Origin: Gracilaria domingensis | Taxonomy: Eukaryota > Rhodophyta > Florideophyceae > Gracilariales > Gracilariaceae | Length of the DNA stretch: 64,000 nt | Assembly: GCA_022539475.1 (NCBI GenBank) | Contig: VCMS01000100.1 | Span: 171,697 to 235,696, forward strand | Direction of reading: 5' to 3' | Shown: in pieces, positions 16,480 through 64,000 of the stretch | Numbering within the stretch: position 1 is the stretch's first letter | Layout of the letters: every line of letters begins with the position of its first letter | Translations under genes and position numbers: made by a program | The notes under the pieces: generated by a model | What the model was told of the DNA's origin: nothing | Databases searched by the model: none | What the model saw: only the letters and a program-made list of their open reading frames with translations

Positions 16480-17882
16480 CTCACTTAGAAACTGTCAGAC
16501 CGAAAGGAAGCTGAAGCTAGCAGGTTGGTTGAGAGACAACATAACTCGAAAGACAGAACAGGTCAAGGATTATATACTATGATCTGTCGTAAAGTTTCTG
16601 CAGGACATATCCCGGTAAAGTAAGTGTGAGAAAAGCACTAAAATATCCCCACCTCCCATAACAGGGAGTCATGTTGCTGGAATTCGCCTAAGGGATACAA
16701 CTTGCTTCTAAAAAAGTCAGAATACGGCAGCAAAATTATCTAAATCTCCCATGAAGAGTGTAAAAAATCAGTAGCGCGGTTAAGGAAACTACTAGCACAT
16801 CGCAGTGTGTACAAAAAATTCCAAGGGCTGACTTTTGTCGTAACGCAACGGCGACCTATTACGAGCTCCCTTAGGGCCATGTTTTAACTCTTTTTCATCT
16901 CCTTCCAAATCTTTTGTTGACTTTGTCTTTTGGCATCCTCACTTTTCTTCAACATAGTTTGTGCTTCTTTGTCATCAAACTTTTTTTCTTGTTATTTAGA
17001 TTCTACGTGCGGTTTGGTCTCTTGCTTCGTTTTCTGAAGTTGTTGTTAGCTGCCGTCTATTCATGTCGCGTGGGCACAGAAACGGTTTTAACTATACCAA
17101 CGCTCTTTTTCTACACACAAACGTGAGTTTTACAGTGCATCTACTAACTGCTTTGCATGCGTCTGTCTTGTCGATTGTTAGTTTGGACAAATATTTATAA
17201 AGACCGTCTTGCTTCAGTTTTTTATTCGGATATTGTGTTTATCGCTGGGATACCGTATTTTCTTTTGTCTTATAGGCTCGTACTTCTTGGGCATTTTTTG
17301 TGTTGCTCTTTTTGGTTTTGTCACTACCCACATTATTCCGTTTGGTTACAAAAAATGGCGTCCACAAATTTAATGTGGGCAATACGTTTAAAGTAATGTC
17401 GTCGGTTGAGAATTGTATTTCTACATTCTATTGGAACCATGCACTCTTCGCAAAGGAGTTCTGCGGGTCTTTGCTTGGAGAAGCTCGCTTCTCTAAGGTC
17501 TGATATAGAAAGTCGCACAATTCTCACAAACTGTGGTAGTTATATTAGTTCGCTTCATCGTTAGGAAATTAGTTATTAGCAATCCAGTCACATGTTGCGT
17601 CGGAGGATTCTCATGCGATTGAGTTCAATGGCTCTCCGTCACTTGTAAACCTTCGGAATGATACATATCTGTTCAGAGCTTTTTCTCCCAGCGTCCAAAA
17701 TGAATGTCCCAATTGATCTAGTATTACGAGGCAAGCGACTCTAACGGCATCCAGAGTGTTAATGATGGCCAAGGCCATCTCCATTCAATCTGAGCTACAG
17801 CCTACACTGGTGCCATTTCCGAACCTTTGACAGGGGTTGATGCACTTGGAGACTGTACGGTTCACTGTCTGTCGATTTCACT
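16480..17882. other. T-rich stretch without a convincing gene
   Basis: The plus strand from about 16880 to 17400 is very T-rich and yields hydrophobic frames (FF, LL, FL runs) that need no coding explanation. A short stretch near 17360-17500 has slightly more protein-like composition, but no motif or splice structure could be established. Confidence 0.4.
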
Positions 17883-18218
17883 TCACGGATATACTGTGAT
17901 TGATGCGTCGTTGGGGATCAATGAGCAGATCTGGAACCATTCGATACCAGGAAAGCACTTGTCATATCTGGAAGGCCAAATGCCTCCCAAGAGACATTTA
18001 TTTGCCGAGGGAACCTTGACGCACTCTTCCTGGCAGTAATGGCAGTGATTAAGCGCGTTTTGGTTTCCACTATGACACCAATAAGCTTCGTGCACGCAAC
18101 AACGGGCAGCAGTCCCTCCTTCCTTGTGACATTCTCCAGGTGCCCACGCAAAGACGGCGTGAATCGAAATGAGAGAGATTAGAGCGATCAAGGTTGCCTT
18201 AGTATGATGGACGGCCAT
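17883..18218 (-). CDS. Secreted ten-cysteine protein, short form
   Basis: A 111-residue protein with a clear signal peptide (basic start, hydrophobic residues 9-23, likely cleavage after A24) and a mature part of about 87 residues with ten cysteines: C30, C40, C41, C48, C59, C62, C66, C75, C88 and C98. The motifs HEAY, CQEEC, VPS and GG-WPSR--KC recur at identical positions in the plus-strand gene 1.45 kb away, so the two are paralogues in divergent orientation. The cysteine-pair layout suggests a disulfide-stabilised extracellular domain. I do not recognise it as a named family. The start is the only ATG in frame with a signal peptide. No obvious TATA box precedes it. Cell-wall or defence roles are possible but unproven. 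Confidence 0.85.
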   Translation of the reverse strand: MAVHHTKATLIALISLISIHAVFAWAPGECHKEGGTAARCCVHEAYWCHSGNQNALNHCHYCQEECVKVPSANKCLLGGIWPSRYDKCFPGIEWFQICSLIPNDASITVYP

Positions 18219-18404
18219 TTTGCGGAGGTTGAGGGCGAACGAAGATACTACTACTCAAGATTAAGAGGTGATGAATAGATTCTTCATTTTGTACTGCCCA
18301 AACTGAAGCATCTACGAAAACAGCATAAACGTAGGCGGACAGCGTTCGAAGTTCTTGTCTTTTCTCGAAGTGTTCTATCCAGTCTCAAGATTTCAACTGT
18401 AAAT

Positions 18405-18435
18405 TACGGTGGTCCTCTCTTCGAGGACCACCGTA
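18405..18435. repeat. Perfect 13-bp-arm hairpin
   Basis: TACGGTGGTCCTC and its exact inverse enclose the loop TCTTC. It lies between the short cysteine-rich gene and the split gene. No T-run follows, so it is not an evident terminator. It may be a tiny fold-back element. Confidence 0.8.
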
Positions 18436-18805
18436 GGGCTGCCTACTGCATGGTCATCATGTTGGCGTTACGGGTGTCGATTCTCTTTTGAAAGGTGACA
18501 CCCATTTTTTGCTGAGAAGAACATTGTGAACAAAATGAGCCTCTTATGCAACCGTGGGCCGGTAAATTTGACTCCAGTTCAGTCTCTCTAGATGGATCTG
18601 CGTCAGATAGGAAAATTCCCGACATAGACGTCTCGTGGAAAGAAATAACTGTTTGACACGAAGTTCAAATCAAAAAGCCATCACTACGACAGCAATTGAG
18701 ATCGTTTTAATATCTCAAAATGGTGACGACCATGCGATCGTAGAAAGATCATCCCCTGGCACAATACGGTCAAGTAGAAGGTCCTAAGTCTTGGTGTATT
18801 TCCAA

Positions 18806-19435
18806 TTATTGACCATCTCCATTCCTTCCAATAACCTTACAAAGGATAGAAGTACGGCTCTTTTGAATAGCGAATGAATTTCCATGATGACAACATGGGA
18901 TGTCATCGGGACAGTACCCTTGCATTGGCTGATATAAACACCTGTTCCTGCATTTCGAGAAACTCCTAGGATTTCTCGCAATCCTACCAGTTTTCTTCAA
19001 AAAAATCGGATCATTTCCTACGAGCACAAAGCAGGGCCGTATTTATGACTACCTATTTTGCTAAATTATAGACATTGACTGACTACTCCGGCAAAAAGAG
19101 TAGTCATTATCTTATTTATTGAATACTTTTTCGGCGGTCTGACTACTAGATTTGGAGCTCTTGTGACTATTTGACTATTCATCCCGCTATTTTGGTAGTC
19201 ACAAATACGCCCCTGGCACAAAGACATACCCATCTTGTTGGGAAAGAAATCTCACGGAGAGGACCGCGGTTTCATTTTTGCGAGCTACGGGTTGTAAGAC
19301 TAACCTCACTACTCCATTTCGAACTTGACAGCCAGGAATTGCCCATGCTTTAAGTGTCATTTGAATTGTATGAGAGATACGGAGGGACACCGGTAAGTTG
19401 CGATTGAGCAGGACGACATATGCTTTGTGACTCAT
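18806..19435 (-). pseudogene. Small cysteine-rich protein gene split by a MITE
   Basis: From the ATG the frame reads MSHKAYVVLLNRNLPVSLR onwards for about 70 codons to DGYVFV, where a MITE begins and soon gives an in-frame TGA. On the far side the same frame resumes with LVGNDPIFLKK and continues through a cysteine cluster (C--RC--------C-----CC) to a TGA. Removing the element and one copy of its 8-bp target duplication leaves a continuous frame of about 145 codons. This shows that the element landed in a pre-existing coding sequence. The insert plus duplication is 192 bp, a multiple of three, but it carries a stop. The family is unrecognised. Its position between two ten-cysteine paralogues suggests it belongs to the same group of small proteins. 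Confidence 0.65.
19024..19223. mobile_element. hAT-type MITE with perfect target-site duplication
   Basis: The 184-bp element at 19032-19215 begins CAGGGCCGTATTT and ends in the inverse AAATACGCCCCTG. The 22-bp terminal inverted repeats differ at two positions. It is flanked by GCACAAAG on both sides (19024-19031 and 19216-19223), an exact 8-bp duplication typical of hAT transposition. The inside carries several GACTAC/GTAGTC words, including a GACTACTC...GAGTAGTC hairpin at 19081-19105, which look like transposase-binding repeats. It has no coding capacity, so it must have been moved by a hAT transposase made elsewhere. The intact duplication indicates a recent insertion. Confidence 0.93.
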
Positions 19436-19533
19436 GTGGAATGGTTGCCATCTTGGAGTACTTCGGGAAGACGGGAAGGAAAATCAGTTAGTCAAATATT
19501 GCACCAGAGATCCATGTCTAGGACACTGACTGA

Positions 19534-19540
19534 TATAAAA
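19534..19540 (+). promoter_or_regulatory. TATA box for the long ten-cysteine gene
   Basis: TATAAAA in the context TGATATAAAAAGAG lies 133 bp upstream of the ATG. This is a reasonable distance for a core promoter plus a leader of about 100 bases. Confidence 0.5.
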
Positions 19541-19672
19541 AGAGTCAAAACGTTCTTCAGTCTCTCCTGATCCTACAACGCCTCAACTAAAGTCTTTCAT
19601 TCATCAAACTGCTCTGAATCCGAGAACCGACTCTTCTTCGTTTCGGACCACATTTCAATCTCCCGCGTGAGT

Positions 19673-20623
19673 ATGACGGATATTGTGTTCAGGACCACTT
19701 TTATGGTTCTACTTGCGCTGGCGGCGGTAAGTGCAGCTCACGGATGGGGACCGGGCGGATGCCAAGGGACCGTACGGAGCGCTGCTCTTTGTTGTAGACA
19801 CGAGGCGTACCGGTGCCGTAATGAAGGTGGTCGAGCACCAAGTCACTGTGACTTGTGTCAGGAGCTTTGCATGTTAGTGCCATCGGAGACTGTTTGTGTA
19901 CGGGGCGGTACCTGGCCGTCACGTAGAAAGAAGTGCTATACTGGTCAGAATTGGGCCAAAGTGTGCGCAATGATTGCGAATTCCACGTCACAGACCGGTA
20001 GTGCATTCCAGCATGTCGACCGGGTAGTTACCACTGCTTTCTCAGCACAACGTATGCAAGGAAAGCAGGTTGAGATTTTTGCGCTCAACTTGGCTGCCCA
20101 GAAGCGTGGGGCCGACGCAACCGCCGCTTCTACAAAAAGCGATGGGAAAGTTGTTGTTGTGGATCGTCAAAGTCGAAACAGAAACGCAGTGACGAACCAG
20201 ATTGCTTTCCTTCTCGAGCTAATGGGCGAAGTTGTCAGTGCTCTTCGTAGCGCGTCGATATCCAACACAGCTGAGAGCGTCCGGAGAAACATGGATCGAG
20301 CAGTTTCCTCTTTGCAGGCACTGATAGTTCATGGCAGGGACTTGGTTGGGCTCGTACCATCCAATGACACAGCTCTATTTCGCACTGTGTTCGATCAATG
20401 GATCAGTGCTCTTCGAGTGATCAGAGTTACGCTGCGGGACTTCATTGATGAGAGCGCTTCAATCGACGAACTAAAGATATCTGTGGCGGCTATAACTGAT
20501 GAACTGGGGGAAGGGTTTTGGACCAGGGCATTCGATGCGCTGAACGCATATGCTGCATTTGGTCAATTCAGTGCAGATTGGCCGCCTTGGATTAACGCCA
20601 TCGGGCAGTTCTTCGCGCCCTGA
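19673..20623 (+). CDS. Secreted ten-cysteine protein, long form with helical tail
   Basis: A 316-residue protein. Residues 1-24 are a signal peptide (hydrophobic 8-22, cleavage near HG|WG). Residues 25-100 carry ten cysteines at positions 30, 40, 41, 48, 59, 62, 66, 75, 88 and 98, exactly the positions found in the divergently oriented short paralogue, with HEAY, CQE-C, VPS and GG-WPSR--KC conserved. Residues 105-316 have no further cysteines and look alpha-helical and amphipathic (heptad-like stretches such as ISNTAESVRRNMDRAVSSLQ), unlike anything in the short form. An upstream in-frame GTG is not needed, because ATG 19673 gives a perfect signal peptide. A TATA box lies upstream. I infer an extracellular protein with a disulfide-rich head and a helical tail. 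The family is unknown to me. Confidence 0.9.
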   Translation: MTDIVFRTTFMVLLALAAVSAAHGWGPGGCQGTVRSAALCCRHEAYRCRNEGGRAPSHCDLCQELCMLVPSETVCVRGGTWPSRRKKCYTGQNWAKVCAMIANSTSQTGSAFQHVDRVVTTAFSAQRMQGKQVEIFALNLAAQKRGADATAASTKSDGKVVVVDRQSRNRNAVTNQIAFLLELMGEVVSALRSASISNTAESVRRNMDRAVSSLQALIVHGRDLVGLVPSNDTALFRTVFDQWISALRVIRVTLRDFIDESASIDELKISVAAITDELGEGFWTRAFDALNAYAAFGQFSADWPPWINAIGQFFAP

Positions 20624-44864: not shown

Positions 44865-46808
44865 TCATGCACAAATCCACTGACAAGTGCTCATTAGTGC
44901 ATCGTGATCGGAGACTCGACCAGGGGATCCATACGGCAATTCAGTGGCAATGTGTGCAACTCGGAGTCGTCCGCAAATCAGACATTTTCCTCCGACTAAA
45001 ATGTGGTCCAAAGTTTGGAGCCTACTCTGGAATACAAAAGAATATCTTGCGCGAGAAGGGAGGGTGCTCCAGAGATTCTTGAGACCAAGTGTTTGTACGG
45101 GTGTAGAGAAGTAGAAGTCGTTCAAGTCTCCCATCACCACGACAACGCCGTTTCTAGGAGTTCCATCAAGGAAACTCCTGACAGCACTGGCTTGGGTTAA
45201 GCGTTTTTCCTGACTTTCTTGCAACGGGGGCTGGACACGCCCGAAAAGAGCGTCGTCTCCAAATTTGCTGTTCCAATGGTTCATGACGATCATGATGCGT
45301 CGACTGCGGTCGCTCACAAACTCAAACTCTGCAACTAGGGGCTTGCGACTGTTGGGGAACTGCGAAGGTGAAATACGACCAGGGTTCAAAGTCAAACGTC
45401 CGTTGCGTATATCTACTGCATCAACCGGACCACCTTTTGGCCTTCCAGGAGCAAGTACAACGCTGTCGCTTCTATACAAGAAGGCGACGCGGATGTTTTC
45501 CCCTGGTTGACCACCGTCTGCCAGATTTACCGGATCTATGTCAGAAAACTTGTACGAAGACACGCGACAAGCAAAATTAGCTTTGTCTGCTAGCAACTGC
45601 AGCGTAACTGAAGCAGACGTAACGTTGCTCCTTGCAGAACCATCATTGTCCCCTATTTCGGAAAGTCCGAGGATATCAGGACAGCACAGCTGGCCTTCTA
45701 TGACTTGTCCAATAACTCGGAATCCTTCTTCATCGTCCAATGGGTCTCTGTTCTCTAGGTTCCAGGTGGCGAGGCGCAGTGTTCCCTTGTTCGGCTTTTC
45801 ATTGCAATATGGTAGTTTCATGGGCACTTGCACGGAAGCTTTCTGCTGCTGCTCGAGAGGTTCAGTGTTATAAACCTTATACTGAGAAAAGGAGTAAAAG
45901 AGCACACCTCTGAACGCCTTAAGATTGGTACCGGCAGTGAAGTTTCTTGAACCTCGTGGAACCAGATCGTCCTCGACGGTTATAACATTTGGTTTGAAAT
46001 CTGTGGCAGTCACGACTGCACTTGGAGGGCTGCGTGGTAGCAACCATGATGCTTGCCTCGAAGCAACTCCAATCTCTCCAAAACGTAGCTCCGCGGTAAC
46101 CGTCCGTGCTCTCTTTATCGCAACTAACATATGTTCGTGCGCCTCGTAGAAACATATTGCACTTTCTCGCACAGTGGAGCACGTGTAGTTCCCGTTGACG
46201 AGATTTGTCCGAAGCGCTTCGGAGTCTTCTTCATATCCGCTTCCAGAACCAAATGATGAAAGTGGGGTTTCAGGGTCGAAAGCAGCCGGTTGGATATATC
46301 GCAGGGGTATGCTACCAACGATTTTAGCTTTCGAATTCACGAGTTCAGTGACTGGCAAATCCTCTGGGCGTGATGATGGCACGAACTCTGCAACTGTCCC
46401 ACATACCTCCACAACATCGCCAACTTCGGGAACTACTTGGGGGGTGAAGGTAGGCCGAAACAAGTAAATAGCTTCAGAGGTACGGGGATCTTCATCTTCG
46501 TACAGGTCCTGAAGCCAAACAGAGGGCGTCTGAGTCAAATTGTTGATTGCGGTCACGACGCCAATAGTCGTAACCTTGTTTCCAGCCAGCGGTGATATCG
46601 TCCCAGGCCCTTGAATTTCGCTGATGTAGAAGAAATCCCTAACGGGAGGCGGGTTGTACAATGGGCGATGGCAGTATTGCCGGCGATAACAACGCTGACC
46701 CCCCGTACAATCGCTCCGAAAACTACAACGTGCTTTCAATCCATGAGCAATATCTTGTAGAAGAATCACAGTAGCGAGAAGGAGAGCAAGCAGGACGTTA
46801 CGCGCCAT
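44865..46808 (-). CDS. Secreted ExeM/NucH-like nuclease (OB-fold plus EEP domain)
   Basis: A 647-residue protein with a signal peptide (1-23, LLALLLATVILLQDIAHG) and a short cysteine-rich segment (C-F-S-C--G-RCY-RQYC, about 28-46). Residues about 60-170 are an OB-fold region like that of bacterial extracellular nucleases (SVWLQDLYEDEDPRTSEAI, VGDVVEVCGTV). The endonuclease/exonuclease/phosphatase domain covers about 345-645 with all catalytic blocks: LATWNLEN, ILGLSEIGDN, IVMNHWNSKFGDD, VVMGDLNDF, LDHILVG and VSDHDAL. It should be an active extracellular DNase/RNase or phosphodiesterase. This architecture is best known from bacteria, so transfer from bacteria is a reasonable inference, though codon use looks like the host's. 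Possible roles are phosphate scavenging or degradation of extracellular DNA. Confidence 0.87.
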   Translation of the reverse strand: MARNVLLALLLATVILLQDIAHGLKARCSFRSDCTGGQRCYRRQYCHRPLYNPPPVRDFFYISEIQGPGTISPLAGNKVTTIGVVTAINNLTQTPSVWLQDLYEDEDPRTSEAIYLFRPTFTPQVVPEVGDVVEVCGTVAEFVPSSRPEDLPVTELVNSKAKIVGSIPLRYIQPAAFDPETPLSSFGSGSGYEEDSEALRTNLVNGNYTCSTVRESAICFYEAHEHMLVAIKRARTVTAELRFGEIGVASRQASWLLPRSPPSAVVTATDFKPNVITVEDDLVPRGSRNFTAGTNLKAFRGVLFYSFSQYKVYNTEPLEQQQKASVQVPMKLPYCNEKPNKGTLRLATWNLENRDPLDDEEGFRVIGQVIEGQLCCPDILGLSEIGDNDGSARSNVTSASVTLQLLADKANFACRVSSYKFSDIDPVNLADGGQPGENIRVAFLYRSDSVVLAPGRPKGGPVDAVDIRNGRLTLNPGRISPSQFPNSRKPLVAEFEFVSDRSRRIMIVMNHWNSKFGDDALFGRVQPPLQESQEKRLTQASAVRSFLDGTPRNGVVVVMGDLNDFYFSTPVQTLGLKNLWSTLPSRARYSFVFQSRLQTLDHILVGGKCLICGRLRVAHIATELPYGSPGRVSDHDALMSTCQWICA

Positions 46809-53877: not shown

Positions 53878-54042
53878 AACAGGAAGCAAAGCAGTATCTA
53901 CGTGTGTCCTTCTCAGTGGACTATAGAGCTGATGTTTCGCGCCAAGAAACCGAAACACCAGACCACAACAACACCACGCAACATCAGAACCCTGTTTAAT
54001 CTTCAGGATCACCCAATCATACCGTCACCAGGGCCCTGTAGC

Positions 54043-54960
54043 ATGATAAATTGTCTCGAGATGGAGCCCAAGAAAACATCGGCAAGAGGCCCAAGCTTCT
54101 CTCCAGGCGAAGATATTGCCATCGCCAAAGCCTACATCAAAACCTCCGAGGATTCCACTATTGGAACTGATCGCAAGAAAAAGCTTTTCTTTCAGGCTGT
54201 TACAAAGCTTTATAAAGATAAGTACAAGCCCGCAAACCGCTTAGCTCGTTCTGTAAAATCCATTCGCAACCGCGTCAAGCTTTTTACGACTAAATGCATT
54301 CAATTCTCCGCGTGCTACTGTAGAGTGCAAGGTTTGCAATCATCCGGATATAACGAAGACGACAAACTTCAAATGGCCACAGGAATGTATAACGGAATTA
54401 CGATGACATCTCCCAAAGATGACATCGAAAAGCCGTTTAAATTTAAAGGGGCGTGGGACATACTGCCTTTTCATCCCAAAATTTTTACTGAGACCCAATC
54501 GAAGGTGGATTCCTCAGAATCTAGCTCAACGGGCGGAAAGTCGGAGCACATAGAACCCAAATCAGAGAATCCAGATCCTGATGATTCAAAACCTGCCCGT
54601 GCTAAAAGTGATCAACACCGTCCAATCGGTCGGAAAGCAGCTAAGGCCGACTTTATAAAACAAAGGCACTACGAGGAGAAGCTCAAAGTGGCGAGAAAGA
54701 CGTTGGAACTACAAAAACAGAGGGCAATTGAAATTAAGAGGAAAAACGATATCGCATTGTTCACTCTCTGTGCAGACAAAAGCCCAGAGACGATGGAGTA
54801 CCTGCGCATTTCACGAAAAAGGGTGCTCTCCGAACTACGTGAAGAGGAAGCTAAGAAAGCTCGCAAGGAAACAAAACAAGACGGAACGGAAGAACTTCAG
54901 TCGTCGTCGCAGCAATCGGTTTCCTATGCTACTGAAAAATCAAGGGAAGAGACGGAGTGA
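54043..54960 (+). CDS. Harbinger accessory protein with Myb/SANT-like domain
   Basis: In PIF/Harbinger elements this second protein binds DNA and brings the transposase into the nucleus. From ATG 54043 it has about 305 residues (ATG 54061 or 53932 are alternatives). The N-terminal part, SFSPGEDIAIAKAYIKTSED, then RLARSVKSIRNRVKLF and CIQFSACYCRVQGLQSSG, matches the trihelix layout of transposon-associated Myb-like proteins, followed by FKFKGAWDILPFHPKIF, the typical 'W-L--HPK' end of this domain. The rest is acidic and serine-rich and then a long charged coiled coil (KLKVARKTLELQKQRAIEIK) resembling the NAM-associated C-terminal region. It is intact and convergent with the transposase. Confidence 0.8.
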   Translation: MINCLEMEPKKTSARGPSFSPGEDIAIAKAYIKTSEDSTIGTDRKKKLFFQAVTKLYKDKYKPANRLARSVKSIRNRVKLFTTKCIQFSACYCRVQGLQSSGYNEDDKLQMATGMYNGITMTSPKDDIEKPFKFKGAWDILPFHPKIFTETQSKVDSSESSSTGGKSEHIEPKSENPDPDDSKPARAKSDQHRPIGRKAAKADFIKQRHYEEKLKVARKTLELQKQRAIEIKRKNDIALFTLCADKSPETMEYLRISRKRVLSELREEEAKKARKETKQDGTEELQSSSQQSVSYATEKSREETE

Positions 54961-55132
54961 GGGACCAGTTCATAGGCTCAAATTCGAGGAAACAGTGCCA
55001 GATTGCTCAAAAGTCTCACAAGGGAGCGTTGAGCGCCGTAACGAGCTTGCGAGCGAAGGTGCTCACGCGACCGCGTGAGAAAGGCTTCGTACTTTTGGTG
55101 TGACAGCGGACCTCGAATAGTGTCTTAGAATC

Positions 55133-56449
55133 TCAGACGAGTCTGTAGTTAAACGTAGTCCCATGCATTGACCACAAGTGCTCAATCACGTCGTTTTGTA
55201 AATCACGCTGCTTCCACTCGTTATTGAGAAACTGTTCCGTTTGACAGAGTGCCGCGATAGAGACCGGAATAAGCGCGTTAATGTTTTCAGACCAAACGGG
55301 CTGTCGATCTTGTGTAGCCGCACTCATACTATTGCCCCCTTCGCTATTCCAAGACACTTCCTCATCAGTCAAACCCTCCTCTACCATCATATTGTGCAAA
55401 ATGACGGTACAGTACATTACATTCTTCATGGTCGCTACATGCCAAAAGCGTGATGGTCGTCGGGTAATGTGCCATCTACCTTGCAGCACACGGAACGCAC
55501 GTTCAAAGTCCTTTCGCCTGCCTTCCTGTCTTTTGGCGTGATTTTTCTCTTTCTTGGTTGTTGGCTTTTGTACCGTGTGAACAAATATGGGGTACCGCGG
55601 GTACACGCCGTCACACAGAAAGTATGGTATGTCTCTATTCTTCTCGTTCAAGGTGTTCGATAACTTTGACGGAAACGATCCGTCTGCTATCTTGTTCATG
55701 AGAGACGAGCACTCCAGTACGTTGATATCGTTTGCGCTTCCTGGCATTCCAAAGTATGCATGCCATATCCAAAGACGATCATCTGCAATAGCTTCTATAG
55801 TTAACCCAGGCTTGCGTTCTTTGCCCTGATATTGTCCTATCCACGCAACAGGACAATTTTTCCAGATCCACTTCGAGCAGTCAATGCTGCCAATCATACC
55901 AGGGAAACCGAGTGATTCTGTTCTTCTAGTAATGTTCTTGAGATCATCGGTTGTAGGACAGCGCAAGTACTCCTCACTAAATGTTTCTACAACCCTAGAA
56001 CAGAACTGCTTTAAGCTTTGTGCTGCAGTTAATTCTCCCATGCGGACATATTCATCTACACTGTCTGCTGCACAGCCGTAGGCGAGCAACCGGAGAGCAG
56101 CCGTGACCTTTTGTTCTGTGCTGAATCCTAGGTGGCCTACGCAGTCTCGGTGTTGGTGGAAATACTTTTCTTTTTCTTGTAGACGCGCGCAAATGCGGTG
56201 AAACACTGGTTTCGAAACACGAAATCGTCCTCTAAAATGGCCGGAGTGATACAGGGCATTGTGGTCAAGGTAGTCTCTGTGCAATTCTTGGAGTCCTGTT
56301 TCTCGATTGCGGTTTATGTTGCGGCTACGTCCTGGAACAGAACCGCCATGTGTGCCTTGTTCTTCTTCGCTTTCAGAGCTTGTTAACATATCTGCCATAA
56401 CCTCGTCGAGGACTTCATCGAGGTCGTAGGTTAACAAGCTAGACGACAT
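55133..56449 (-). CDS. PIF/Harbinger transposase (DDE_4 family), intact
   Basis: A 438-residue protein from ATG 56449 (MSSSLLTYDLDEV); the longer frame upstream is not needed. It has an acidic N-terminus, a helix-turn-helix region (STEQKVTAALRLLAYG), then the DDE catalytic core: D190 in GMIGSIDCSKWIWKNCP, GLTIEAIADDRLWIWHAYFG-PGS-NDINVL, D280 in YFLCDGVYPRYPIFV and E316 in RRKDFERAFRVLQGRW. The spacing D-89-D-35-E fits Harbinger transposases, and HNMMVEE near the end is also typical. No break is seen, so it could still be active. Confidence 0.92.
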   Translation of the reverse strand: MSSSLLTYDLDEVLDEVMADMLTSSESEEEQGTHGGSVPGRSRNINRNRETGLQELHRDYLDHNALYHSGHFRGRFRVSKPVFHRICARLQEKEKYFHQHRDCVGHLGFSTEQKVTAALRLLAYGCAADSVDEYVRMGELTAAQSLKQFCSRVVETFSEEYLRCPTTDDLKNITRRTESLGFPGMIGSIDCSKWIWKNCPVAWIGQYQGKERKPGLTIEAIADDRLWIWHAYFGMPGSANDINVLECSSLMNKIADGSFPSKLSNTLNEKNRDIPYFLCDGVYPRYPIFVHTVQKPTTKKEKNHAKRQEGRRKDFERAFRVLQGRWHITRRPSRFWHVATMKNVMYCTVILHNMMVEEGLTDEEVSWNSEGGNSMSAATQDRQPVWSENINALIPVSIAALCQTEQFLNNEWKQRDLQNDVIEHLWSMHGTTFNYRLV

Positions 56450-63347: not shown

Positions 63348-64000
63348 TCAAAGCAAATCAACAGCTTCAGATGTAGGGACAAGCTCGTTCGGCCAGTTCT
63401 CAAGGTCATCCAATTCCAGTTCACAGTCTCCCTCGTCGATAATCTCGCATGATATGCTTTCGTCGTCGAGAAATCGAGAGTACATCTGTCCGTTCACAGT
63501 GGACTCCATGACATTTGAGCCCATCGCTTCTCTTGGATTGCCAAACCGTAGCTCTCTATAATCATTCTCTTTCAACTTCTCCTCAGTCCGTCTTCGAACA
63601 TCAAACAAGGACTCGTTATAAGCGCAGAATATTAATTTGGAAACTTTGCTCTGCTGCAATCGATTCCGAGTGGGTGTTCGCAGTCTGCTCTGCATGCTGA
63701 AACTGCGCTCCACGCTTGATGACGACGGGCTAGAGCACAATATCCGCAAGGCAAATTCACGAAGAGGGGAGGACTTAGAGTACTCTATCCAGTAGTATAC
63801 TGGGGTTTCGCTGTACATCATCAAAGAATGCCTCGAAATAGGGTCGTTTGCTTGTGAACGCCAGGCCATTCGAACTGACACAAATTCTTTGCATAATCGA
63901 TCAACAGCTCCATGCTCGCCTCCTTCGCTGGGTACCTTCTCAGTTGCGGGAAAACACTCTGACTTCACATAAGAAAGCACGTGCTGAACAAGATGATGTG
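63348..64000 (-). mobile_element. hAT transposase C-terminus, running off the window
   Basis: The minus frame is open to the window edge. It contains the hAT dimerisation domain: YYWIEYSKSSPLREFALRIL, SSPSSSSVERSFSMQSRLRT and RNRLQQSKVSKLIFCAYN, corresponding to the family W-------YP-L---A---L--P-SS---ERvFS----i----R--L----v--l--l--N pattern. An acidic tail (DEGDCELELDDLENWP) ends at a TGA. No break is visible within the window, unlike the broken hAT at 8.8-10.5 kb, and the two are not closely similar. The element's other end lies outside. Confidence 0.85.

Follow-up and report, generated by a model that had tools for sequence, protein, structure and literature searches.

Two divergent genes for presumably secreted, cysteine-rich proteins lie close together in the stretch of Gracilaria domingensis DNA analysed here (the window, 64,000 nucleotides in full). 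C100L and C100S denote the long and the short gene of this pair, and C15, C39, C79 and similar names refer to contigs of the same assembly. The features of the pair, in window positions, are the following.

19673..20623, plus strand: long gene (C100L), an intact single-exon open reading frame of 316 aa and a full two-module member, with its ATG at 19673 and its stop ending at 20623
19534..19541, plus strand: TATA box of the long gene, 139 nt upstream of the ATG, with TATAAAA at a similar distance in relatives as well
19673..19744, plus strand: residues 1-24 of the long protein, a hydrophobic N-terminus and putative signal peptide
19745..19990, plus strand: ten-cysteine head of the long protein (residues 25-106), its ten cysteines invariant in 8 of 8 aligned heads; dN/dS 0.43 against C164
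19991..20158, plus strand: variable linker of the long protein (residues 107-162); dN/dS 1.15 against C164 (residues 107-160)
20159..20614, plus strand: cysteine-free tail of the long protein, modelled as helical (residues 163-314, AF2 model); dN/dS 0.26 against C164
17883..18218, minus strand: short gene (C100S), a head-only open reading frame of 111 aa, a truncated relative of the long form
17901..18146, minus strand: ten-cysteine head of the short protein (residues 25-106); dN/dS 0.18 against C15a
17883..17885, minus strand: TGA stop codon that ends the short open reading frame, where C96 and C15 have TGG (Trp) in the DNA alignment
17862..17864, minus strand: second in-frame stop of the short gene (TGA, codon 119), where both C15 head-only copies have TAA and C96 has AGA (DNA alignment)
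17617..17757 (C100:189313-189453), minus strand: tail remnant of the short gene, matching residues 263-310 of the long protein at 38%
18234..18273, minus strand: upstream breakpoint of the short gene, 40 nt against 888 nt at C15 (71126-72013), the TATA promoter being included there

By position count, the cysteines of both proteins fall at residues 30, 40, 41, 48, 59, 62, 66, 75, 88 and 98, as the earlier note on this DNA had observed, and the two sequences are 46% identical over 84 residues (BLASTP, E = 1e-26), which rules out a chance agreement of the cysteine positions. Judged by this alignment the two proteins are paralogues, and it is because of this homology that they have the same ten positions. 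The cysteine-free, helical tail that had been described for the long protein was also borne out, with zero cysteines counted in the tail and helices in the AF2 model. Between the two genes lies a non-coding, roughly 190-bp repeat whose ends are inverted (19029-19216), a MITE-like element found in at least 40 places genome-wide including its own (80 candidates considered), the others being 74-96% identical. Upstream of the short gene there is a near-perfect 31-nt hairpin (18405-18435), which is unique in the window at up to 3 mismatches. Among the neighbouring genes are one that is MCM4-like and one for a flavin amine oxidase, which we take to be of the phytoene-desaturase type.

When both window proteins were used as queries against their own assembly (77.9 Mb, 680 contigs), 19 stretches were matched by the long query and 14 by the short one. 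At least 14 open family copies are present, comprising nine full-length, three head-only and two tail-only copies, a number to be read as a lower bound, the genome search scoring only the best candidates and ignoring introns. The earlier suspicion of a larger family is therefore well founded. The nine full-length copies encode five distinct proteins with one layout of putative signal peptide, ten-cysteine head, linker and helical tail, namely C100L itself (316 aa), its best paralogue C164 (316 aa, 65% identical), C110 (318 aa), C96 (302 aa) and a single protein (302 aa) encoded by five copies on C39, four of which stand in a perfect 6,287-bp tandem array. The head-only copies are C100S and two genes on C15 (C15a and C15b), and the tail-only copies, C79 (237 aa) and C137 (234 aa), each have a hydrophobic N-terminus of their own. 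C15 also carries two further decayed copies, the partners of its head-only genes, and the divergent pair is itself duplicated, occurring on C100 and at two places on C15 with parts of the intergenic DNA homologous. When the genome was swept with the proteins of C110 and C137 as well (E <=10), no convincing further copy appeared, the four added matches being weak (E 0.39 to 3.8, at C87, C85, C54 and C413). A hydrophobic N-terminal stretch is found in 11 of 11 sequences, as scored on the Kyte-Doolittle scale (19-residue maximum 1.39 to 2.07). As far as sequence can tell, these genes form a small family whose presumably secreted products combine three parts, head, linker and tail, and the long gene is one of its intact members; we give this account of the anatomy and history of the family high confidence.

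The array on C39 (44654-69801) consists of four identical 6,287-bp units, each with one full-length family gene and with what we take to be FolB- and FolK-like folate frames; it could be a recent amplification or an assembly artefact. The same contig encodes a secreted-looking, cysteine-containing protein of 734 residues at 69710-71914 and again, frame-broken, at 209645-211851, and this protein is without a Pfam match at E 1e-4. It lies by the C39 copies, with a partial copy by C110, and was considered as a linked partner of the family, but was rejected on account of its inconsistent linkage and its own membership of another family, which is large and dispersed (45 matched stretches).

The three parts of the full-length proteins differ in how fast they change. 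Besides the values for C100L and C164 listed above, dN/dS between C96 and C39a is 0.22 in the head, 0.41 in the linker and 0.20 in the tail, and wherever omega is defined for heads and tails it ranges from 0.08 to 0.43; in two head pairs the synonymous sites were saturated. Codon-position counts were taken from a MAFFT alignment with gapped positions skipped; both these and the branch counts leave out C39e, which has the protein of C39a, and C15b, which has the head of C15a, so that C39a represents the C39 copies. By this count the tail of the intact pair C39a and C96 has a clear third-position excess (44, 32, 79; p = 1e-5). Judged from the copies in this genome, duplications and losses shape the family, and a copy can lose either of its modules. 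Heads and tails occur apart, at three head-only and two tail-only loci, and they seem separable because the head stayed constrained in head-only copies while tail remnants drifted.

The earlier note had the long form adding a tail, but the direction is the reverse: the two-module form is the commonest (9 of 14 open copies), and it is from the short form that a deletion and stop codons removed the tail. Of the C96 positions, 294 are absent from C100S and 325 from C15a, and degraded tail sequence follows the deletion. That the short and long proteins are two designed forms is ruled out by the tail remnants that the short gene carries. By these alignments the ancestor of the short gene was full-length, and the path from it comprised the tail deletion, the stops at codons 119 and 112 and the loss of the family promoter. 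The truncation may be common to C100S and the C15 copies, which group together in the tree with a bootstrap of only 75. Between C15a and C96, the changes at codons 112-150, just behind the stop, still favour third positions (2, 2, 9 of 28 each; p = 0.02), whereas changes in the 3′ remnant are even over codon positions (17, 13, 19; p = 0.56). The C15 stop may therefore postdate the tail deletion; a tail deletion first and a C15 stop later is the simplest reading, with the codon-119 stops perhaps independent.

The upstream region of the short gene has also been altered. TATAAAA stands 129-139 nt before the ATG in C100L, C110, C39a, C96, C15a, C39e and C15b, and related motifs occur at 169 nt in C79 (TATAAAA), at 137 in C164 (TATAAG) and at 132 in C137 (GATAAAA). 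For C100S, the family TATA box was not found within 260 nt upstream, and a scan to 1.2 kb (plus strand) detected no TTTATA, TTTTAT or TATATA. Upstream homology between C100S and C15 breaks at 18233/18274, where 40 nt of the window face 888 nt of C15 that include the promoter, and C96 aligns with C15 across this promoter stretch. With the family promoter gone, the window short gene may be silent now and perhaps dying.

The short gene could be a pseudogene, a dead fragment that is uninformative about modularity and whose head is intact for want of time, and we take this possibility seriously without favouring it. The lost TATA promoter, the extra nonsense codon and the deleted tail would all be expected of such a fragment, a head frame stays stop-free in about 20-24% of simulations with equal random changes, and constraint on the branch of C100S itself is weak (6 synonymous and 7 non-synonymous changes, omega about 0.32, p = 0.04). 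Comparison of C100S with C15a argues otherwise, as the head has changed at half the rate of the tail remnant (31/246 sites against 62/237, Fisher p = 0.0002), the difference holding against the 3′ remnant alone (39/153, p = 0.002), and remnant changes are spread evenly over codon positions (21, 16, 25; p = 0.37). The head dN/dS of 0.18 between these two head-only copies comes with fewer amino-acid changes than a simple neutral simulation produces (p 0.0003 to 0.0009), all ten cysteines are retained, an outcome seen in about 4% under neutral simulation, and the TATA box is still in place in C15a and C15b. Raw synonymous divergence of the head (17.0/52.7) is not lower than the divergence of the remnant (62/237), so the slowness of the head sits in its amino-acid changes. 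Some gene conversion of the heads would be a further reading of third positions, which are slower in the head (16/82) than in the remnant (25/79) by a margin that is not significant (p = 0.10).

Since the head was constrained while the tail remnant drifted freely, the head-only product was probably useful alone for some time. Another reading of the same constraint is that head-only proteins form a stable second arm of the family with a function of their own, the window copy being expressed from a new promoter. That head-only loci sit in the divergent pair, once on C100 and at two places on C15, would suit this, but the family promoter is absent from the window copy, the loci number only three, and C15a and C15b have 0 differences in their head DNA, which points to recent duplicates; we consider such an arm rather doubtful. 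A head-only product that was useful for a time within a two-module family is the reading that we carry forward.

Relatives of known kind were sought in several databases. In Pfam, the 7 two-module or tail-only proteins had no significant match (best E per family 0.014 to 0.51), the weak matches being to DUF7854 in 2 of the 7 and to each other family in 1 of 7. The 8 heads had no Pfam match at E <=10 and none among PDB sequences. NCBIfam returned one ribosomal L17 match for the 7 proteins (E 0.07, in 1 of 7), PHROGs one 17-residue match (E 0.013) that supports no family membership, and a profile search of PDB sequences four sequences with a best E of 0.16. No relative was confirmed with the tail and head patterns in IMG/VR viral sequence or in GTDB genome contigs, and none was found in phage and plasmid sequence; the pattern scans of the prokaryotic, viral and plasmid searches matched 56, 16, 27 and 43 stretches, 0 of which were confirmed. 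A literature search yielded nothing on such a family. The proposal of an undescribed module, perhaps from a lineage-specific family, consequently stands within Pfam, NCBIfam, PDB sequences, IMG/VR, GTDB contigs, phages and plasmids, and reaches no further than the databases searched (these and PHROGs), none of which is a red algal proteome collection.

AlphaFold, with the two window sequences as input, modelled the tail as helices at 163-196, 200-227, 234-260, 264-277 and 279-296, for which block-mean pLDDT lies at 68-85 in residues 171-230, at 60-77 in residues 231-270 and lower further on; the hydrophobic moment exceeds that of shuffles in 2 of the 5 helices (p < 0.05, uncorrected). Foldseek searches with the whole model returned 644 matches at E <=10 and none at <=0.001; the best was a GPCR fusion (E 0.095), and the best 50 of the 644 were mainly GPCR entries and helical bundles. 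The head was not resolved in the model of the long protein (mean pLDDT 50.5) and, modelled alone, reached a mean pLDDT of 61 with a helical hairpin in its better half. Structure prediction of the head had been put forward in the earlier note as a check, and its outcome was no fold match (nothing useful, one hit at E 7.2), but a model this poor says little. In its model the tail takes the form of a helical bundle of a generic kind. TIP47 and p130Cas, on which it superposes, are intracellular proteins: the TIP47 C-terminus (1szi) aligns with a Foldseek probability of 1.00 over 144 columns (rmsd 3.7, E 0.24) and the p130Cas domain with paxillin LD1 (5w93) with 0.99 over 136 columns (rmsd 3.9, E 0.38), at 15-17% identity and with a tail model of moderate confidence, a likeness of generic fold by which kinship is unsupported. 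Sequence kinship of the tail with a perilipin/apolipoprotein-like family was not supported either, the profile test of such a bundle giving a lone ApoLp-III match in 1 of 7 proteins that is not significant (E 0.12).

Fungi, oomycetes and plants have small secreted cysteine-rich proteins, which make up a descriptive class. The family resembles this class in a short disulfide-rich domain with an even number of cysteines at fixed spacing and in a multigene organisation with duplication and loss, and its hydrophobic N-terminal stretches may be signal peptides like those of the class. It differs in a cysteine spacing that fits no Pfam model and in the helical tail of about 150 residues that most members in this genome bear. 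Non-specific lipid transfer proteins have an eight-cysteine motif with CC and CXC. The window heads resemble them in being secreted (putative here) and helical and in having a CC pair, but they contain ten cysteines instead of eight and are without CXC (after CC: C-x10-C-x2-C-x3-C), so that they lack this motif, and the 8 heads have no match to a Pfam model at E <=10. Plant and algal members of that group (PMC9832785) served as the comparison system.

Overall, we regard a two-module family with the history given above and a binding or matrix role as the best explanation, and a fairly probable one. Taken by itself, the extracellular binding or matrix role is a tentative suggestion drawn from architecture. 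The head would be a globule locked by disulfides, with its ligand situated in the cell wall, in mucilage or on microbes, the linker a flexible join, and the tail a helical bundle for oligomerisation or for hydrophobic or protein contact. The proteins could instead be defence factors of an antimicrobial or inhibitor type, as multicopy organisation, tandem amplification, the birth and death of copies and the fast linker between C100L and C164 might suggest; heads and tails are conserved within the omega range given above and not diversifying, the mature proteins have no strong charge (net -4 to +9) and the heads are matchless in Pfam, and we think this unlikely. The boldest reading, an undescribed red algal extracellular family in which the head adopts its own fold and is an independent module, present with a helical bundle, present alone or, in tail-only members, missing, a two-part protein splitting into separately selected parts, is possible but speculative. 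To our knowledge, few red algal extracellular proteins have been characterised so far. A review of the extracellular matrix deals, in part of its text, mainly with polysaccharide enzymes (PMC8307928). The fixed cysteine frame and the matching upstream TATA box offer a concrete target for localisation and binding tests, and deletion variants for such tests exist in nature as the members with a head or a tail alone.

Elsewhere in the window, a transposase with a Plant_tran domain (53932-56449, E 3e-71), presumably PIF/Harbinger-like, adjoins a NAM-associated-domain protein (E 1e-7), and a hAT transposase C-terminal dimerisation region lies at 63351-63869 (E 2e-7). A further secreted-looking protein of 647 aa (44868-46808) has a short stretch rich in cysteines near its N-terminus as well as an endonuclease/exonuclease/phosphatase domain (E 5e-10).
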